Part shown: piece by piece, positions 36,160-41,545 of the stretch
Layout: the number at the start of each line of letters is the position of its first letter
How positions within the stretch are numbered: the first letter of the stretch is position 1
Origin: an uncultured Alphaproteobacteria bacterium
GTDB taxonomy: Bacteria > Pseudomonadota > Alphaproteobacteria > RF32 > CAG-239
Length of the DNA: 64,000 bases
NCBI GenBank assembly: GCA_944393215.1
Contig: CALXZL010000004.1
Span: forward strand, 105,464-169,463
Direction of reading: 5' to 3'
Notes under the pieces: generated by a model
What the model was told of the DNA's origin: nothing
Seen by the model: only the letters and a program-made list of their open reading frames with translations
Databases searched by the model: none
Translations under genes and position numbers: made by a program

Positions 36160-36939
36160 TCAGATTTTCAAAATCTCGGGCATTTGCTTGCGCTTAAAGG
36201 CCATTTTATGATATTGCTTAACCACCCAAGCAACGGTTTTTGCATCATACCCCAGCGCCACAATCTCCTCTTCTGTTTTCTGTTCATCGAGATACAAACG
36301 CAAAATTGCATCCAAAACAGAATACGGCGGCAAAGAATCTTCGTCTTTCTGCCCGTCGCTGAGTTCGGCTGAAGGCACACGGTTTATCACTTCTTCTGGG
36401 ATAACAAAACCTTGTTGATTGCGCCAGCGCGCCAAATCAAAAATCGTGGTTTTGTATAAATCACCAATCGGCAACAATCCGCCGCAAACATCACCATAAA
36501 GTGTGCAATATCCCATCGCCGCTTCCGACTTATTACCGCAAGCCAAAACCAAAGCGCCGTTCTGGTTAGAATAAGCCATCAAAATTTTGCCGCGTTCACG
36601 CGCTTGCAAGTTTTCCATCACTAAATTTTTCGGCTCTTCACCAAAGGCTTGGGTGAGAAATTGCTTTTGCGCAACAATAACCGGTTCAATATCCAAAATC
36701 TGATAAGCAAAGCCGTTCAAATCGGCAAGTTTTTGTGCAATTTGCAAACTTAAATCCGAGGTGTGTTTGGTTTTCATCATCAGGCAAGATACATTTTCTT
36801 TGCCCAAAGCATCGCAAGCCAACACCGAAACCAAAGCAGAATCCATACCGCCCGACAAGCCCAAAATCACTTTTTTGAAGCCGTAACGCTGACAATAATC
36901 TTGCAAACCTAAAACGAGTTTGTTCCAAATTTTTTCCAT
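36160..36939 (-). CDS. nadE: NH3-dependent NAD synthetase
   Basis: Last step of NAD synthesis: amidation of nicotinic acid adenine dinucleotide through an adenylated intermediate. The 259 residues have the PP-loop motif LGLSGGMDSALVSVLACDAL and the downstream GNKSEAAMGYCTLYGDVCGG, which binds substrate. There is no N-terminal glutaminase domain, so free ammonia or a separate amidotransferase is the nitrogen source. Residues DGQKDEDSLPPYSVLDAILR match the family. It is the last gene of nadM-pncA-pncB-nadE, four bases after pncB. Confidence 0.94.
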   Translation of the reverse strand: MEKIWNKLVLGLQDYCQRYGFKKVILGLSGGMDSALVSVLACDALGKENVSCLMMKTKHTSDLSLQIAQKLADLNGFAYQILDIEPVIVAQKQFLTQAFGEEPKNLVMENLQARERGKILMAYSNQNGALVLACGNKSEAAMGYCTLYGDVCGGLLPIGDLYKTTIFDLARWRNQQGFVIPEEVINRVPSAELSDGQKDEDSLPPYSVLDAILRLYLDEQKTEEEIVALGYDAKTVAWVVKQYHKMAFKRKQMPEILKI

Positions 36940-36943
36940 AGTC

Positions 36944-38422
36944 TTATCTCCCGAATTGATTTTGATAATGTTGAATCATCGCTTGCTGTTTTTGATAAAG
37001 CTGTGCATTCAGCCCCACACCGTAATAATGCGGATTGTGCAAACGCTTATATTCTTCCGGCAAAGCCTGCAAATTGCGCTGTGTGGCTTGCTGAATTTCC
37101 GTAAGCGGGCGATTTTTGTGTTTTTCATCTACTTGACCTTTTTGCACCACATCTTGCAACAAGAATTGTGCTGACGTTCCGGCTTCAAAGCGTCGCGGTG
37201 CTTGGGTTTTATCTTGCAAATGATAAGATACCAAAGGCTTAGTTAAAACCCCGTTTTGCAAATAATCTTCATCTTGCGAAACAACCACATCCCCGTTATA
37301 TTTTCCGTCTTCTAACAAGCGGATGACATTGGTTTTACCGGGGATGGTCGTTTTATCTCCTGCCACTTTGATTTTATCGGTACCTTCATAATTTTTGGTT
37401 TTATAAACGCAACCCAGCGCCGGCATATCATCGGCACGCACCAACTTGGTGCCGAGTGCAAAGCTGTCAATCGGTGCTTTTTGTACTTTGATTAAATCTT
37501 CAATAATATACTCATCCAAATCATTTGAGGTAATGATTTTGGTCTGCTTCATTCCGGCATCATCCAAAAGTTTGCGCGCTTGTTTGCTCCAATAAGCCAA
37601 ATCACCGGAATCAAGACGAATACCCTTGAGCGGAATTTGAGTTTCTTCACTTGCTTTAATCGCGTTCAAAATACCTTGTCTGGTTTCATAAGTATCGGGA
37701 AGCAAAATGCCGTCATAAGGATAAGTTTGCAAATAGGCTTTGAAGGCATCAACCTCATTTTCAAAAGACATAATCCAAGAATGCGCCATGGTTCCGACCG
37801 GCGGAATATGATAATTCTGCGCCGCCGCCACATTAGATGTTGCCACACAACCGCCGACAAATGCCGCACGCGTCGGGGAATATCCGCCCAGCTCCATAGC
37901 ACGACGCAAACCAAACTCCATCACCGCTCTTTTGATGCCGTCAGATTGTGCCGCATAAACCGCACGGGCTGCTTTGGTGGCTACTGTGTTTTGCGAGTTA
38001 AGAATATTCAATAACGCCGCTTCCACCAATTCCACCTGCCAGTTGGGACCGCTGATACTATAAAGCGGCTCTCCGGCAAAAACGAGCTCTCCTTCCGGCA
38101 CGGCTTTCACATCAACTTGCAATTTTTGACTCCTGAGTGCGGTTAAAAAATCTTTAGAAAAAAGCGGCTCGCCATTGCTGTTTTTTTGCGCAGCCAAATA
38201 AGCAATATCTTTGTCGGTCACCTGCCAATTTTCCACCCACTCGAGAAACTCGCCCAATCCGGCAGAAACGATATAACCGCAATCTTTGGGCATTTTTCTG
38301 AAAAAAGCCTCTGAGGTTTTATGCTCATTTTGTTTACCGGCAGCAAACCAACCACCACTCATAGTCAAATGATAAAAATCGCACCACAACAAACTGCCTT
38401 CATTAATCAAATTTTGTCTCAT
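36944..38422 (-). CDS. pncB: Nicotinate phosphoribosyltransferase
   Basis: Joins nicotinic acid to PRPP to give NaMN. From ATG at 38420-38422 (GGGAG upstream) it has 492 residues, starting MRQNLINEGSLLWCDFYHLT. Family motifs are FFRKMPKDCGYIVSAGLGEF, GLRRAMELGGYSPTRAAFVG, and KGIRLDSGDLAYWSKQARKL in the PRPP-binding barrel, where the regulatory His position reads THSW-like MAHSWIMSF. Spacing to pncA is one base, so the genes are translationally linked. The length fits the longer NAPRTase type. Confidence 0.93.
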   Translation of the reverse strand: MRQNLINEGSLLWCDFYHLTMSGGWFAAGKQNEHKTSEAFFRKMPKDCGYIVSAGLGEFLEWVENWQVTDKDIAYLAAQKNSNGEPLFSKDFLTALRSQKLQVDVKAVPEGELVFAGEPLYSISGPNWQVELVEAALLNILNSQNTVATKAARAVYAAQSDGIKRAVMEFGLRRAMELGGYSPTRAAFVGGCVATSNVAAAQNYHIPPVGTMAHSWIMSFENEVDAFKAYLQTYPYDGILLPDTYETRQGILNAIKASEETQIPLKGIRLDSGDLAYWSKQARKLLDDAGMKQTKIITSNDLDEYIIEDLIKVQKAPIDSFALGTKLVRADDMPALGCVYKTKNYEGTDKIKVAGDKTTIPGKTNVIRLLEDGKYNGDVVVSQDEDYLQNGVLTKPLVSYHLQDKTQAPRRFEAGTSAQFLLQDVVQKGQVDEKHKNRPLTEIQQATQRNLQALPEEYKRLHNPHYYGVGLNAQLYQKQQAMIQHYQNQFGR

Positions 38423-38423
38423 C

Positions 38424-39047
38424 TTAAATCTCCCTTGCTCCTTTAACCAAATTGAACTGACATTTTTTCTCATTCAAAGCCATGCGAAAAAATTGCTTTG
38501 ACGTCATCATTTTAAGACCGCCTTTTTCAACTGCTTTTTGATAAGCTGGCTGTTGGATGATTTCCGGCATTTGTTGGTTTGCTCCCATGCACAAATCTTC
38601 CAAAATTGTGACCTTAGCACCACGGCTTAAAAATCCGTTCATCGCCTGCTTCACACAAATATCGGAAAGCACACCGCAAAGATAAACTTCTTTATGCCTC
38701 CAGTCTTGCTGTAAAACGGCATAAGTCTTTTCTTCATTCCATAAATTCGTGGTTGATTTATAAAGATTAATAACCGGAATATTATCCTTAAATTCGGCAG
38801 CCTTTTGCCAACCCCAAGTCCCGTAAATGGTATGCAACGGAAAAGATTGTGCTTCTTTGGTTTCAGGATAAGTCTCGGCAAAATGCGTATCCGCCGCATC
38901 AATAATTTGCGTGAACATGCCTTTTTGCAGAGATTGATTAAATTGTTGATGTCTTTCAATCAACTCATGATTATTAATGGTAAGGTTACCGTTTTCGGCA
39001 ACGAAATCGTTTTGAAAATCGATGCGAACTAAAGTGCGTTCATTCAT
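38424..39047 (-). CDS. pncA: Isochorismatase-fold nicotinamidase
   Basis: Hydrolyses nicotinamide to nicotinic acid. From ATG at 39045-39047 (AAGGAG seven bases upstream) it has 207 residues; 11 codons upstream belong to the leader. The active-site Asp is in VRIDFQNDF, and the nucleophilic Cys in GVLSDICVKQAMNGFLSRG. DTHF and FPLHTIYGTWGW match the metal-binding and substrate loops, though some ligands differ from classic PncA, so the metal site may be modified. Its 83-base leader contains the second copy of the structured RNA motif, and the Shine-Dalgarno sequence lies in that structure. Confidence 0.85.
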   Translation of the reverse strand: MNERTLVRIDFQNDFVAENGNLTINNHELIERHQQFNQSLQKGMFTQIIDAADTHFAETYPETKEAQSFPLHTIYGTWGWQKAAEFKDNIPVINLYKSTTNLWNEEKTYAVLQQDWRHKEVYLCGVLSDICVKQAMNGFLSRGAKVTILEDLCMGANQQMPEIIQQPAYQKAVEKGGLKMMTSKQFFRMALNEKKCQFNLVKGAREI

Positions 39048-39054
39048 TTTTATA

Positions 39055-39117
39055 CTCCTTAGGCTTATCAGGTTAATCAAGCGACCTCTCTCCCATAAGC
39101 CCTGCGGAAGACCAAGG
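39055..39117 (-). ncRNA. Candidate cis-regulatory RNA, copy B (pncA leader)
   Basis: Minus-strand RNA between nadM and pncA. Outer stem: CCUUGG (39117-39112) with CCUAAGG (39063-39057), one bulged U; its 3' strand overlaps the pncA Shine-Dalgarno AAGGAG (39060-39055). Inner hairpin: UCUUCC with GGGAGA closing the 11-nt loop GCAGGGCUUAU. A third short stem, AGGU with ACCU, follows. Copy A at 39777-39828 has the same architecture and nearly the same loop. Folded, this copy would hide the ribosome binding site. I do not recognise the motif; a ligand in NAD metabolism is inferred from context only. Confidence 0.6.
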
Positions 39118-39130
39118 TCAGTAAAAAAAT

Positions 39131-39673
39131 TTAGAGAATTGCTTTTCTTTTGTAGAAATGATCTTCAATCAATTGGTAGTTTTCGGGATGAATAAAGTTT
39201 TTCCAGCGTTTATCACCAAACTTAATCATATCGCGCACCATCGTACCGGTAACAAACGGAAAATCCTCCGACGTGCGATCAACATATTCAATATTTTGAA
39301 AAGCTTCTTTAAACCAATGCGCATCATAAGAACTACCGGCATAATAAACATCGGGACGTCCGAGTTGCGGCAAACTTTCGTTCATAAAGTCCAAAACATA
39401 TTCCGCCCATTCCGCCGGATTATTGATGTCAAACAAACCAATGATTTTTAAGCGCGGATAATCGGGAGAATTGCGATAAACATTTTGAATCATCTTTTTG
39501 CGCGTGGTGTAGTTAAGCGGGTTACGCTCCGTACCCTGTTCTTGAATCGAACCCAAGATGATAGTGACTTGCGCACAGTCTTTAAGCATACGGTCAATCA
39601 AACGGGCATGCCCGATATGGAAAGGCTGCGCGCGCATAATGCTTAAACCGTGTTGATATTTATATTCAGACAT
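39131..39673 (-). CDS. nadM: Nicotinamide/nicotinate mononucleotide adenylyltransferase, NadM type
   Basis: Adenylylates NaMN or NMN to give NaAD or NAD. The 180 residues have the nucleotidyltransferase motif MRAQPFHIGHARLIDRML and the second motif FVTGTMVRDMIKFG, which stands for the ISSTxIR site. ERNPLNYTTRKKMIQNVY is typical of NadM. There is no C-terminal NUDIX domain, unlike the bifunctional proteins. It is the first gene of the salvage operon. Its leader of more than 150 bases carries RNA motif copy A and a Shine-Dalgarno-sequestering hairpin directly before the start. Confidence 0.88.
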   Translation of the reverse strand: MSEYKYQHGLSIMRAQPFHIGHARLIDRMLKDCAQVTIILGSIQEQGTERNPLNYTTRKKMIQNVYRNSPDYPRLKIIGLFDINNPAEWAEYVLDFMNESLPQLGRPDVYYAGSSYDAHWFKEAFQNIEYVDRTSEDFPFVTGTMVRDMIKFGDKRWKNFIHPENYQLIEDHFYKRKAIL

Positions 39674-39697
39674 AAAAAAAACTCCTTATTTAAGGAG
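39674..39697 (-). promoter_or_regulatory. Shine-Dalgarno-sequestering hairpin before nadM
   Basis: On minus, CUCCUUA pairs with UAAGGAG across two bases; the 3' arm contains AAGGAG, the only ribosome binding site for nadM. Eight U residues follow, then the AUG. The element looks like a terminator and a ribosome-site block in one, a plausible expression platform for RNA copy A about 80 bases upstream. Confidence 0.6.
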
Positions 39698-39776
39698 CCG
39701 ACATCAGAAAGATTTATTTATTACAGTCTACCCTCTGCATTATATTTGCAACTAGATAAACTCATCTATTCTTAAA

Positions 39777-39828
39777 CCGGCTCAGTTTACTTTACCGCCC
39801 CTCGTCCATAAGCCCTTCGGACGACCGG
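39777..39828 (-). ncRNA. Candidate cis-regulatory RNA, copy A (nadM leader)
   Basis: Minus-strand RNA upstream of nadM. Outer stem CCGGU (39828-39824) with GCCGG (39781-39777). Inner hairpin UCGUCC (39824-39819) with GGACGA (39807-39802) closing the loop GAAGGGCUUAU; the first pair could belong to either stem. A third stem, CGGU with ACUG, follows, and CUGA then GCC are shared with copy B. Compared with copy B, the inner stem differs at third and fourth pairs but stays paired (G-C to U-A, U-A to U-G), and the outer stem has a different sequence. This covariation points to selected RNA structure. Confidence 0.6.
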
Positions 39829-39872
39829 AACATTTTTTATAATAAAGAGAAAAAAATAAAATTGCAACAAAA

Positions 39873-39909
39873 AAGTCTTTAAGACACGCGGTCGAAACTC
39901 TCCACGAGG
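39873..39909. repeat. Direct repeat unit, copy 1
   Basis: AAGTCT, a short variable part, then AGACACGCGGTCGAAACT and TCCACGAGG. The same unit recurs at 40177-40215 with three differences. It lies in the gene-free, repeat-rich stretch 39841-40354 between nadM and tuf. Confidence 0.75.
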
Positions 39910-39920
39910 AAAACTCGAAT

Positions 39921-39976
39921 GTCATGCTGAACTCGTTTCAGCATCTTATGAGATTCCGAAACAAGTTCGGAATGAC
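39921..39976. repeat. Dispersed palindromic repeat, full copy
   Basis: GTCATGCTGAACTCGTTTCA and its imperfect complement ending GTTCGGAATGACA form a 56-base inverted repeat. Its minus-strand translation gives the spurious peptide SELVSESHKMLKRVQHD, often seen in databases where this repeat family is miscalled as a gene. A half copy lies at 25748. Confidence 0.75.
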
Positions 39977-40019
39977 ATAAACATGCCCCTTTCCACAAGG
40001 CACGCATAGAAACTCGATA

Positions 40020-40140
40020 ATTGAGATGAGTAGAAGCAAAAATAGAAAAGCCGAAAATCCTAGTGTACAAAAACGTACATGAATTTTTCCCTTTTCGAAA
40101 TTTTTGCTCTAGATGAGCTGTTATATGTGTTCTAAATCCT
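40020..40140. repeat. Large palindromic element R1, downstream of tuf
   Basis: Left arm TAGAAGCAAAAATAGAAAAG and right arm CTTTTCGAAATTTTTGCTCT are near complements; the centre is TAGTGTAC, seven bases, GTACATGAA. The right end GCTCTAGATGAGCTGTTATA is shared with R2. No coding sequence inside. Confidence 0.75.
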
Positions 40141-40176
40141 AAAAGCTCAAGATTTGGAGATTATAGCGTGAAAAAC

Positions 40177-40215
40177 AAGTCTCTCAGAGACACGCGGTCG
40201 AAACTTTCCACGAGG
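40177..40215. repeat. Direct repeat unit, copy 2
   Basis: Second copy of the unit at 39873-39909: AAGTCTCTCAGAGACACGCG then GTCGAAACTTTCCACGAGG. It separates palindromes R1 and R2. Confidence 0.75.
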
Positions 40216-40221
40216 CACTTT

Positions 40222-40353
40222 TTTTAGAACGCAGAGAATAGTTCAGATAGAGTGAAAATAAGAAAGGGAAAAATTCTAGTGTAGTTAAGCCTACATGAAT
40301 TTTTCCCTTTTCGAAATTTTCGCTCTAGATGAGCTGTTATATGCGTTCTAAAA
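40222..40353. repeat. Large palindromic element R2, abutting the tuf stop codon
   Basis: An imperfect inverted repeat with arms of about 60 bases. The outer end AGAACGCA pairs with TGCGTTCT, then ATAGAGTGAAAAT with TTTTCGCTCTAGAT, and inner AAGGGAAAAATTC with GAATTTTTCCCTT around TAGTGTAG and CTACATGA. The element ends one base before the tuf stop codon, so the tuf mRNA would carry a very long 3' hairpin. There is no U tract on minus after it. Confidence 0.8.
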
Positions 40354-40354
40354 C

Positions 40355-41545
40355 TTATTTCAAGATTTTAGATACCACACCTGCTCCGACAGTGTGTCCA
40401 CCTTCACGAATAGCAAAACGCAAACCTTCGTTCATGGCAATCGGGTGGATCAATTTTGCTGTCATGCGAATGTTATCGCCAGGCATTACCATTTCTGTAC
40501 CTTCAGGCAATTCAATTGCACCGGTCACATCGGTGGTACGGAAATAGAATTGAGGACGATAGTTAGAGAAGAACGGAGTATGACGTCCACCTTCTTCTTT
40601 GGTCAAAATGTAGCATTCGCAAGTGAAGTCTGTGTGCGGCGTAATGGTGCCGGGAGCTGCCAATACTTGTCCACGTTCAACTTCTTCTCTCTTGGTACCG
40701 CGGAGCAATACACCGATGTTATCGCCGGCTTCACCTTCATCCAACAATTTGCGGAACATTTCAATACCGGTACAGGTGGTTTTTTGTGTCGGACGGATAC
40801 CTACGATTTCGATATCATCACCTACGTGCAATACACCTCTTTCTACACGACCAGTAACAACTGTACCACGACCGGAGATTGAGAATACGTCTTCAATCGG
40901 CATCAAGAACGGTTGATCTTTCGGACGTTCCGGTTGCGGAATGTAGCTGTCTACGGCTTTCATCAATTCAACAATTGAATCGTGACCGATTTTCGGATCG
41001 CCGTTTTCCAATACTGCCAATGCAGAACCTTTGATGATTGGGATTTCGTCACCCGGGAAGTCATATGAGCTCAACAAGTCTCTGATTTCCATTTCAACCA
41101 AGTCCAACAATTCAGGATCGTCTACTTGGTCTACTTTGTTCATATATACAACCAATGCCGGAACGCCTACTTGACGAGCAAGCAAGATGTGTTCACGGGT
41201 TTGCGGCATCGGACCGTCTGCTGCGGATACGACCAAGATTGCTCCATCCATTTGCGCAGCACCGGTAATCATGTTTTTAACATAGTCAGCGTGGCCCGGG
41301 CAGTCTACGTGTGCATAGTGACGATTCGGAGTTTCATATTCTACGTGTGAAGTAGAAATGGTAATTCCGCGAGCTTTCTCTTCAGGAGCTTTATCAATTT
41401 GATCATATGCTGTGAAGCTTGCACCGCCTTCTTCTGCCAATACTTTTGTAATAGCAGCGGTCAAGGTGGTTTTTCCGTGGTCTACGTGACCGATAGTTCC
41501 AATGTTGCAGTGAGGCTTTGTGCGCTCAAATTTCTCTTTTGCCAT
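40355..41545 (-). CDS. tuf: Elongation factor Tu
   Basis: Brings aminoacyl-tRNA to the ribosome. The 396 residues contain the G1 motif [16 protein letters not shown]3 [13 protein letters not shown] and G4 NKVD, and end GVVSKILK. All three domains are full length. ATG at 41543-41545 with GGAG upstream. It follows fusA after a 286-base spacer filled by two palindromic repeats, and is followed by two more, which is unusual for a gene normally in a tight str operon. Confidence 0.98.

Follow-up and report, generated by a model that had tools for sequence, protein, structure and literature searches.

The question raised by this locus is whether the two minus-strand leaders of a putative NAD salvage operon, one before a nadM-like and one before a pncA-like gene, carry the same regulatory RNA and, if they do, what that RNA would sense. 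The DNA analysed, here called the window, is a 64 kb stretch (64,000 nucleotides) forming part of a host genome of 1.72 Mb in 27 contigs. Among named records, the closest to this genome are MAGs that bear the title uncultured Alphaproteobacteria, with animal rumen, colon, rectum or cecum in several titles. A first-pass annotation of the same DNA had suggested that the leaders share a structured, metabolite-responsive motif. From sequence comparison we propose that both leaders carry a copy of a single cis-regulatory RNA, which most likely works as an OFF riboswitch that senses NAD or a compound close to it in the pathway.

The operon lies entirely on the minus strand and would encode, in order of transcription, a nadM-like NMN/NaMN adenylyltransferase of 180 aa (39131-39673), a pncA-like nicotinamidase of the isochorismatase fold (38424-39047), the nicotinate phosphoribosyltransferase pncB (36944-38434) and the NAD synthetase nadE (36160-36939). 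The nadM-like protein scores below the NCBIfam equivalog cut-offs and the NCBIfam match of the pncA-like protein is likewise under its cut-off, so that both names rest on family membership and context. Searches for other NAD-pathway proteins (35 genomes in all) gave no NadA match in the host genome or in 18 other genomes of its family; NadD had none in the host genome and a best match of E 4e-6 at most in the 18 others, and PnuC had none in the host genome and two matches, both sub-cut-off, in the 18 others. The same searches were positive in 12 (NadA), 11 (NadD) and 5 (PnuC) of 14 control genomes. As nadA, nadD and pnuC have no match in the host genome, the nadM-pncA-pncB-nadE operon may be its main or only NAD route, and the host seems to be dependent on external nicotinamide or nicotinate. 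Just 5′ of the nadM leader lies a promoter-like TTGCAA-17 nt-TATTAT (39839-39867, minus strand), a match to consensus only, of a kind found 3 times against 3.2 in shuffles; since it adjoins the leader, the motif would be close to the transcript's 5′ end. Further upstream, towards tuf, the intergenic DNA (39863-40357) contains direct repeats of 103 nt (85%) and 47 nt (79%) together with an inverted repeat, and these are perhaps members of a family of dispersed intergenic repeats.

The common motif spans 39771-39832 before nadM and 39055-39119 before pncA, and its shared part, which we call hairpin 1, consists of a stem P1, a 2-nt bulge, a stem P2 and an 11-nt loop, GNAGGGCUUAU. The loops GAAGGGCUUAU (nadM) and GCAGGGCUUAU (pncA) and the inner stems UCGUCC/GGACGA and UCUUCC/GGGAGA described by the first-pass annotation were all re-found. 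The 11-mer AGGGCTTATGG occurs at exactly two places in the window, these being the two leaders, and at one more with one mismatch; when one mismatch is allowed, 3 of 100 shuffles reach three matches. In the nadM leader P1 is formed by GUUCC (39827-39831, supported by alignment covariation and RNAalifold) and GGGGC (39797-39801), the bulge is GG (39825-39826), P2 is formed by UCGUCC (39819-39824) and GGACGA (39802-39807), and the loop (39808-39818) contains the kissing strand GGCUU (39810-39814). In the pncA leader the corresponding parts are GACCU (39115-39119) and AGGUC (39083-39087) for P1, UCUUCC (39106-39111) and GGGAGA (39089-39094) for P2, and a loop (39095-39105) with the kissing strand GGCUUAU (39095-39101); every one of these stem arms is supported by covariation.

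Folded singly, either leader shows no greater stability than its shuffles (z -0.31 to -0.82), and the evidence for the fold is consequently comparative and not energetic. In an alignment of 46 sequences of both leader types (A2), 92.9% of the cells of hairpin 1 and the kissing helix are paired against a shuffled mean of 78.7, with 164 double-change cells against 47.7, and all 11 pairs of hairpin 1 are changed on both sides; sliding the partner by 1-3 columns drops the pairing to 40-48%. This alignment takes 46 of 52 non-redundant rows, those dropped (both rows of L024 and of L040, the pncA row of L025, and L032) having either P1 shifted by one base or long linkers. Separate alignments give 94.5% paired for the nadM type (A5, 52 rows: 53 rows minus L131 and L147, in which P1 is shifted, plus L122, which the script had sorted with pncA) and 96.8% for the pncA type (A6, 37 of 43 rows, the close copies L109, L110, L111, L135, L137 and L138 being omitted). 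RNAalifold, unaided, predicts hairpin 1 from the nadM set. Beyond pairing, the second G of the bulge does not vary among the 46 rows of A2, nor do A17 and G18 of the loop, which are at least 90% conserved in A5, and an A-U at the loop end that lies outside the reach of the kissing helix is invariant in A5. The leaders of these NAD-pathway genes carry a conserved structure with covariation, as expected of a riboswitch. Covariation had been claimed earlier for inner and outer stems alike, and it is the inner stems that homologues keep by changes on both sides. The outer stem CCGGU/GCCGG is paired in 73.0% of cells against a shuffled mean of 73.2, with no pair changed on both sides among 52 sequences, and CCUUGG/CCUAAGG in 59.9% against 61.0 among 37, so that neither is supported in relatives; the outer stem with support is the P1 given above, GUUCC/GGGGC at nadM and GACCU/AGGUC at pncA.

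The CUGA before GCC of the first-pass annotation proved to be part of a second element, the role of which had been missed: its loop pairs with the loop of hairpin 1. At nadM this element is a second hairpin, P3 (39774-39788, minus strand), in which AAAC (39785-39788) pairs with GUUU (39774-39777) around the loop U-GAGCC-G, and GAGCC (39779-39783) makes five pairs with loop 1, while the partner of the pncA-type loop is AUAAGCC, making seven. Three of the four P3 pairs are changed on both sides in some relative of the nadM type, and 87.5% of cells pair as aligned (A5); the arms read AAAC/GUUU in most nadM-type rows and AGAG/CUCU in L158. RNAalifold, unaided, did not predict P3 from the nadM set. 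The kissing helix has at least five contiguous pairs from its anchored end in 84 of 92 distinct rows and at least three in 90, the exceptions being L126 and L157, mismatched near the anchored end, and L129, L149, L158 and L161, with three or four pairs. The strong conservation of this helix by itself would say little, and it is the compensatory changes that lend it support. A U-A kissing pair has become C-G in 5 of 37 pncA-type rows (A6) and in a sixth, L164, which is shifted in the alignment; the C-G state of these six loci needs at least three changes on the NadM tree, either three gains or a gain with losses; the tree has long branches, and its bootstrap is unsettled. In the nadM leader of L164, from isolate Lab288P3bin38, which we take to be a termite-gut sample, a U-G kissing pair has become A-U. 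Four features of the predicted fold are thus demonstrated by comparison among relatives: hairpin 1, the kissing helix, the P3 of nadM leaders, and the position of the Shine-Dalgarno (SD) sequences described below.

Downstream of P3 the nadM SD AAGGAG (39682-39687) is held in a hairpin, GGCUCCUUAAAUAAGGAG (39682-39699, minus strand), followed by a terminator-like tract of eight U (39674-39681) between this hairpin and the AUG. The arm of the SD hairpin together with its preceding base, CGGCUC (39695-39700), is the reverse complement of GAGCCG in P3. Among 57 distinct nadM leaders the GGCUCC arm facing the SD is found in 53, with altered arms in L129, L158, L161 and L164, and 6-9 U after the SD and before the start in all 57. 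As GAGCC of P3 is complementary both to loop 1 and to the GGCUCC arm, it can pair with either. Duplexes between the P3 stretch (20 nt) and the arm stretch (32 nt) average -14.0 kcal/mol against -8.6 (sd 2.7) for shuffled partners, a comparison in which the sequences are related, and so not independent trials, and in which pairs beyond GAGCC/GGCUC are included; the L164 duplex is weak, at -8.4 kcal/mol. The last 36 nt of the nadM leaders, containing the SD hairpin, average -8.5 kcal/mol. The GAGCC/GGCUC pairing covaries in part, the partner opposite GAGCCA of P3 being U in some leaders and C or A in others. Furthermore, the unconstrained fold of the nadM leader of the window (173 nt) contains hairpin 1 with the P3 strand paired to the arm, and the same leader cut at the U tract folds with the SD hairpin and without hairpin 1, which hints that the two predicted folds are competing states. 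The spacing between the kissing strand and the start of nadM varies from 53 to 203 nt across the 57 leaders, with the pairing partners kept, and the longest leaders (L111, L119 and L123) carry an insert that resembles, by eye, the intergenic repeat of the window.

The pncA leader places its ribosome site differently. The kissing strand AUAAGCC (39062-39068) ends one base 5′ of the SD AAGGAG (39055-39060), and a CCU (39070-39072) stands upstream as a candidate anti-SD (39055-39072 together, minus strand). Across leaders an upstream CCY can pair with the SD by 3 to 5 bp, and in the window CCU/AGG (3 bp) would close a second hairpin. In a search for stems, others than the anti-SD helix were chosen in several rows and the anti-SD reading was kept by eye; this weakly supported helix is the weakest part of the model. 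In both leaders, nevertheless, a putative expression platform appears to be coupled to the conserved fold, at nadM by way of the arm, the SD hairpin and the U tract, and at pncA by the setting of the SD beside the kissing strand. In L149 a short reading frame (2216-2284) separates the pncA-type element from the start of pncA, so that the element there would control a small leader ORF first.

Outside the host genome the motif is found in part of one family and in one genome of another. A covariance model built from 46 leaders of both types (R1) finds the motif once or twice in each of 53 genomes among the 127 of the family, and all 53 are among the 71 in which the NadM protein was found. In the order it matches 55 of 154 genomes, in the class 4 of 385, including one genome of another family (G184) that has both copies, and in the phylum the host genome only (1 of 299); these sets overlap, and searches of more than 40 genomes used strict filters, by which weak matches can be lost. 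In a separate collection of 77 named NadM loci R1 matches 58, 44 of them twice and 14 once. A pncA match is present in 47 of these named loci, with a second motif copy in 44 and without it in three (L155, L156 and L162), and none of the 11 motif-bearing loci lacking a pncA match has a second copy, some of these contigs ending early. Neither form of the motif, the second form being that described below, is present in six of the 77 loci (L165, L167, L168, L169, L184 and L185). The motif is confined to one operon type and essentially to one clade, and its association with these genes therefore amounts to few independent events. An over-specific exact pattern of the motif had no match in the host genome, and no relatives of NadM were found in viral contigs. 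Two of the loci, L156 and L177, come from MAG records titled Lactobacillaceae and Candidatus Gastranaerophilales, and their nadM groups with alphaproteobacterial nadM on the NadM tree; the record titles are probably wrong names or reflect mixed bins.

In 19 of the 77 named loci R1 finds nothing significant. Reading the leaders of these loci by eye identified, in 13 of them (L170-L182) that all lie in one divergent nadM clade on the NadM tree, a leader of the same plan before the gene we call nadM2. Its loop is (G/A)AGGGC(A/U)AU and its P3 GAC..UGGCC..GUC; an SD hairpin with a tract of 7-8 U is present in 13 of 13 and GGCC in the arm in 10 of 13. The hairpin covaries (A7, 14 distinct rows, 95.1% paired against 90.2 shuffled), and in the kissing helix GGC/GCC is invariant, with the fourth pair mismatched in 8 of the 14 rows. 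A further copy of this type (L189) occurs in G443, a genome of a third family of the class; the nadM frame there stops after 26 codons and looks broken or misread. All 13 loci have in addition a second hairpin downstream of nadM2, with P1, a GG bulge, a 6-bp P2 and the loop UAGGGACAGU, which pairs with ACUGUC directly 5′ of an SD; in 2 of 11 distinct rows (A8, without L172, which the pattern missed and the model R3 found) an A-U pair is replaced by G-C. The next gene is cofE-like (PF01996, below its NCBIfam cut-off) in 12 of the 13 loci and a short frame in L174. The operon plan in these divergent MAGs, as in L171 (2498-5412), is nadM2, the cofE-like gene, further genes and, in 9 of 13 loci, pnuC, which in L171 is the third gene after nadM2; the presence of an F420-ligase-like protein in such an NAD uptake operon is unexplained. 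R3, built from the second, post-nadM2 leader alone, recognises three nadM2 leaders as well, those of L177 and L182 at E 0.004 and that of L181 at 0.022, and one pncA leader, that of L164, at 0.053. The best value that R1 gives for a nadM2 leader at the correct position is E 8.2. As R1 is blind to them, the kinship of the nadM2 leaders with the main type is read from their common anatomy, with weak model support. The search R2 matched 4 of 109 family genomes, three of which (G037, G066 and G087) are nadM2 leaders; the fourth match, in G106 (E 0.017, L194), looks like chance, and a single weak R3 match in the class (1 of 275, E 0.018, L195) sits in apparent coding sequence and is probably chance as well.

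Rfam 15 (4227 families) has no match in the 64 kb window at gathering score, and at E up to 10 the interval 39000-39900 gives seven weak sRNA and snoRNA matches, all under their gathering scores, and no NAD, TPP or SAM family. The earlier view that the motif is not NAD-I, NAD-II, TPP or SAM thus holds at gathering score and at lax thresholds alike, the TPP and SAM classes being rejected for lack of any match to their Rfam models. In the SAM-II, preQ1 and SAM/SAH pseudoknot riboswitches a hairpin loop pairs with a strand at or near the SD. The SAM/SAH riboswitch is described as an H-type pseudoknot (PMC7367207). The mode of action proposed here is like that of these three classes, and their covariance models give no match.

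Two NAD riboswitch classes are named in PMC7749635 and PMC10043782, and the authors of the second class expected more rare classes (PMC7749635). That second class, NAD+-II or the pnuC motif, resembles the present element, as its reports describe it, in being a short RNA at an NAD-pathway gene with a proposed OFF mode; it consists of P1, P1a and a long-range pseudoknot involving the ribosome site, to which the kissing helix predicted here may correspond (PMC7749635, PMC10085692). By the same descriptions it differs in standing before pnuC, in having been found first in Streptococcus only, and in its A5 triplex strand and pseudoknot helix C10-C14 (PMC7749635, PMC10085692). Here, in contrast, the RNA is a bulged hairpin of Alphaproteobacteria whose loop, GNAGGGCUUAU, kisses a second element; the predicted logic at the ribosome site, the kissing strand lying one base before the SD at pncA and competing for an SD hairpin at nadM, would be similar but the sequence is different. 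The genes downstream are nadM and pncA, with PnuC not found in the host genome, and the Rfam model of NAD+-II has no match in the window; in 39000-39900 no NAD family appears even with E allowed up to 10. NAD+-I, the nadA motif, shares the association with NAD synthesis genes but is made of two tandem bulged stem-loops with a ACANCCCC bulge, according to PMC7297122, whereas here each of the two copies precedes a different gene; this bulge is absent from the aligned leaders of A2, A5 and A6, and no NAD+-I Rfam match was found. The pntA motif (WRC-36-2) is described in PMC11109978 as a candidate that may respond to some form of NAD and that has SD nucleotides in a stem, but as one known from Streptomyces only, before pntA; our comparison with it is by description. 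No description of a nadM/pncA leader element was found in a largely open-access literature, a coverage by which its absence from print is unproved. We regard as real a conserved RNA family of NAD salvage leaders that is unlisted in Rfam 15, and it is probably a rare riboswitch class.

The main rival to the riboswitch reading, and one that we consider unlikely, is that a protein binds the RNA, for example NadM repressing its own operon in the manner of ribosomal proteins, with the kissing complex as the protein site. The short, highly conserved loop core, the confinement to nadM-bearing genomes and the two sites in one operon would suit such a partner, as would the changed loops that come with the nadM2 paralogue and that a co-evolving protein would demand. 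Against it, the tract of 6-9 U and the competing arm before nadM are the usual parts of a riboswitch platform; protein-bound leaders can have both as well, and no NAD enzyme is known to us to regulate itself by binding RNA. It is improbable that the leaders have no specific ligand and act as an attenuator, an RNA thermometer or a passive fold setting translation or mRNA stability: the two mutually exclusive pairings of GAGCC would permit such non-specific control, but the conserved loop positions beyond pairing (A17, G18 and the A-U at the loop end) speak against it. That the GGGCUUAU loops are the target of a trans-acting small RNA, as a conserved and accessible-looking loop might suggest, is very improbable, as the loop changes together with the cis strand of the same leader and differs between paralogous operons. 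A DNA operator for an NAD repressor of the NadQ, NrtR or NiaR type, for which two similar sites within one operon could be taken, hardly deserves consideration because arms of different sequence covary, the stems changing while pairing is kept, and the second site reaches the ribosome-binding site.

Returning to the riboswitch, we propose the following model. When ligand is scarce, GAGCC of the nadM leader would pair with the downstream GGCUC, leaving AAGGAG free and the gene on. Ligand held by a core of bulge and loop would favor the kissing complex, which would withdraw GAGCC; CUCCUU would then pair with AAGGAG and the SD would be hidden. The CUCCUU/AAGGAG hairpin with the U8 tract would make a transcription stop also possible at nadM. 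At pncA the kissing complex next to the SD, together with the CCU/AGG pairing, would hide the ribosome site directly. The signal would likeliest be end-product feedback by NAD+, followed by NMN, NaMN, nicotinamide and nicotinate; NAD+ is our first guess because the named genes, leaving the cofE-like gene aside, are concerned with making NAD or taking up its precursors. This model retains from the first-pass annotation a metabolite-responsive RNA in an NAD salvage operon, a proposal that came through the three checks named with it, on Rfam matches, on presence in other genomes and on covariation of the stems in homologues, the binding of a metabolite being the step that we infer, and it adds what the earlier account lacked, namely the loop-loop helix, the link to the SD, the terminator-like hairpin before nadM and the nadM2 look-alikes.

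We lean towards a third NAD-sensing architecture, a family of kissing-loop riboswitches that comprises four or more leader types (nadM, pncA, nadM2 and post-nadM2), in which the bulged hairpin and an AGGG core are kept and the kissing sequence is exchanged. Within one operon the fold would have a different output at each of the two genes: at the first, transcription termination or release of the SD, and at the second, masking of the SD. That the loops are exchanged between paralogous operons may mean that the ligands differ as well, say NAD+ in one case and a compound derived from nicotinamide riboside in the other. NAD is universal, yet the papers cited here name only two riboswitch classes for it, and the present element, of about 60 nt, is a short candidate, with two natural copies in one operon and look-alikes at a paralogous operon in uncultured, host-associated Alphaproteobacteria. 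Binding of NAD+ would make it a new fold for this ligand, whereas binding of NMN, NaMN, nicotinate or another precursor would make the ligand itself new.
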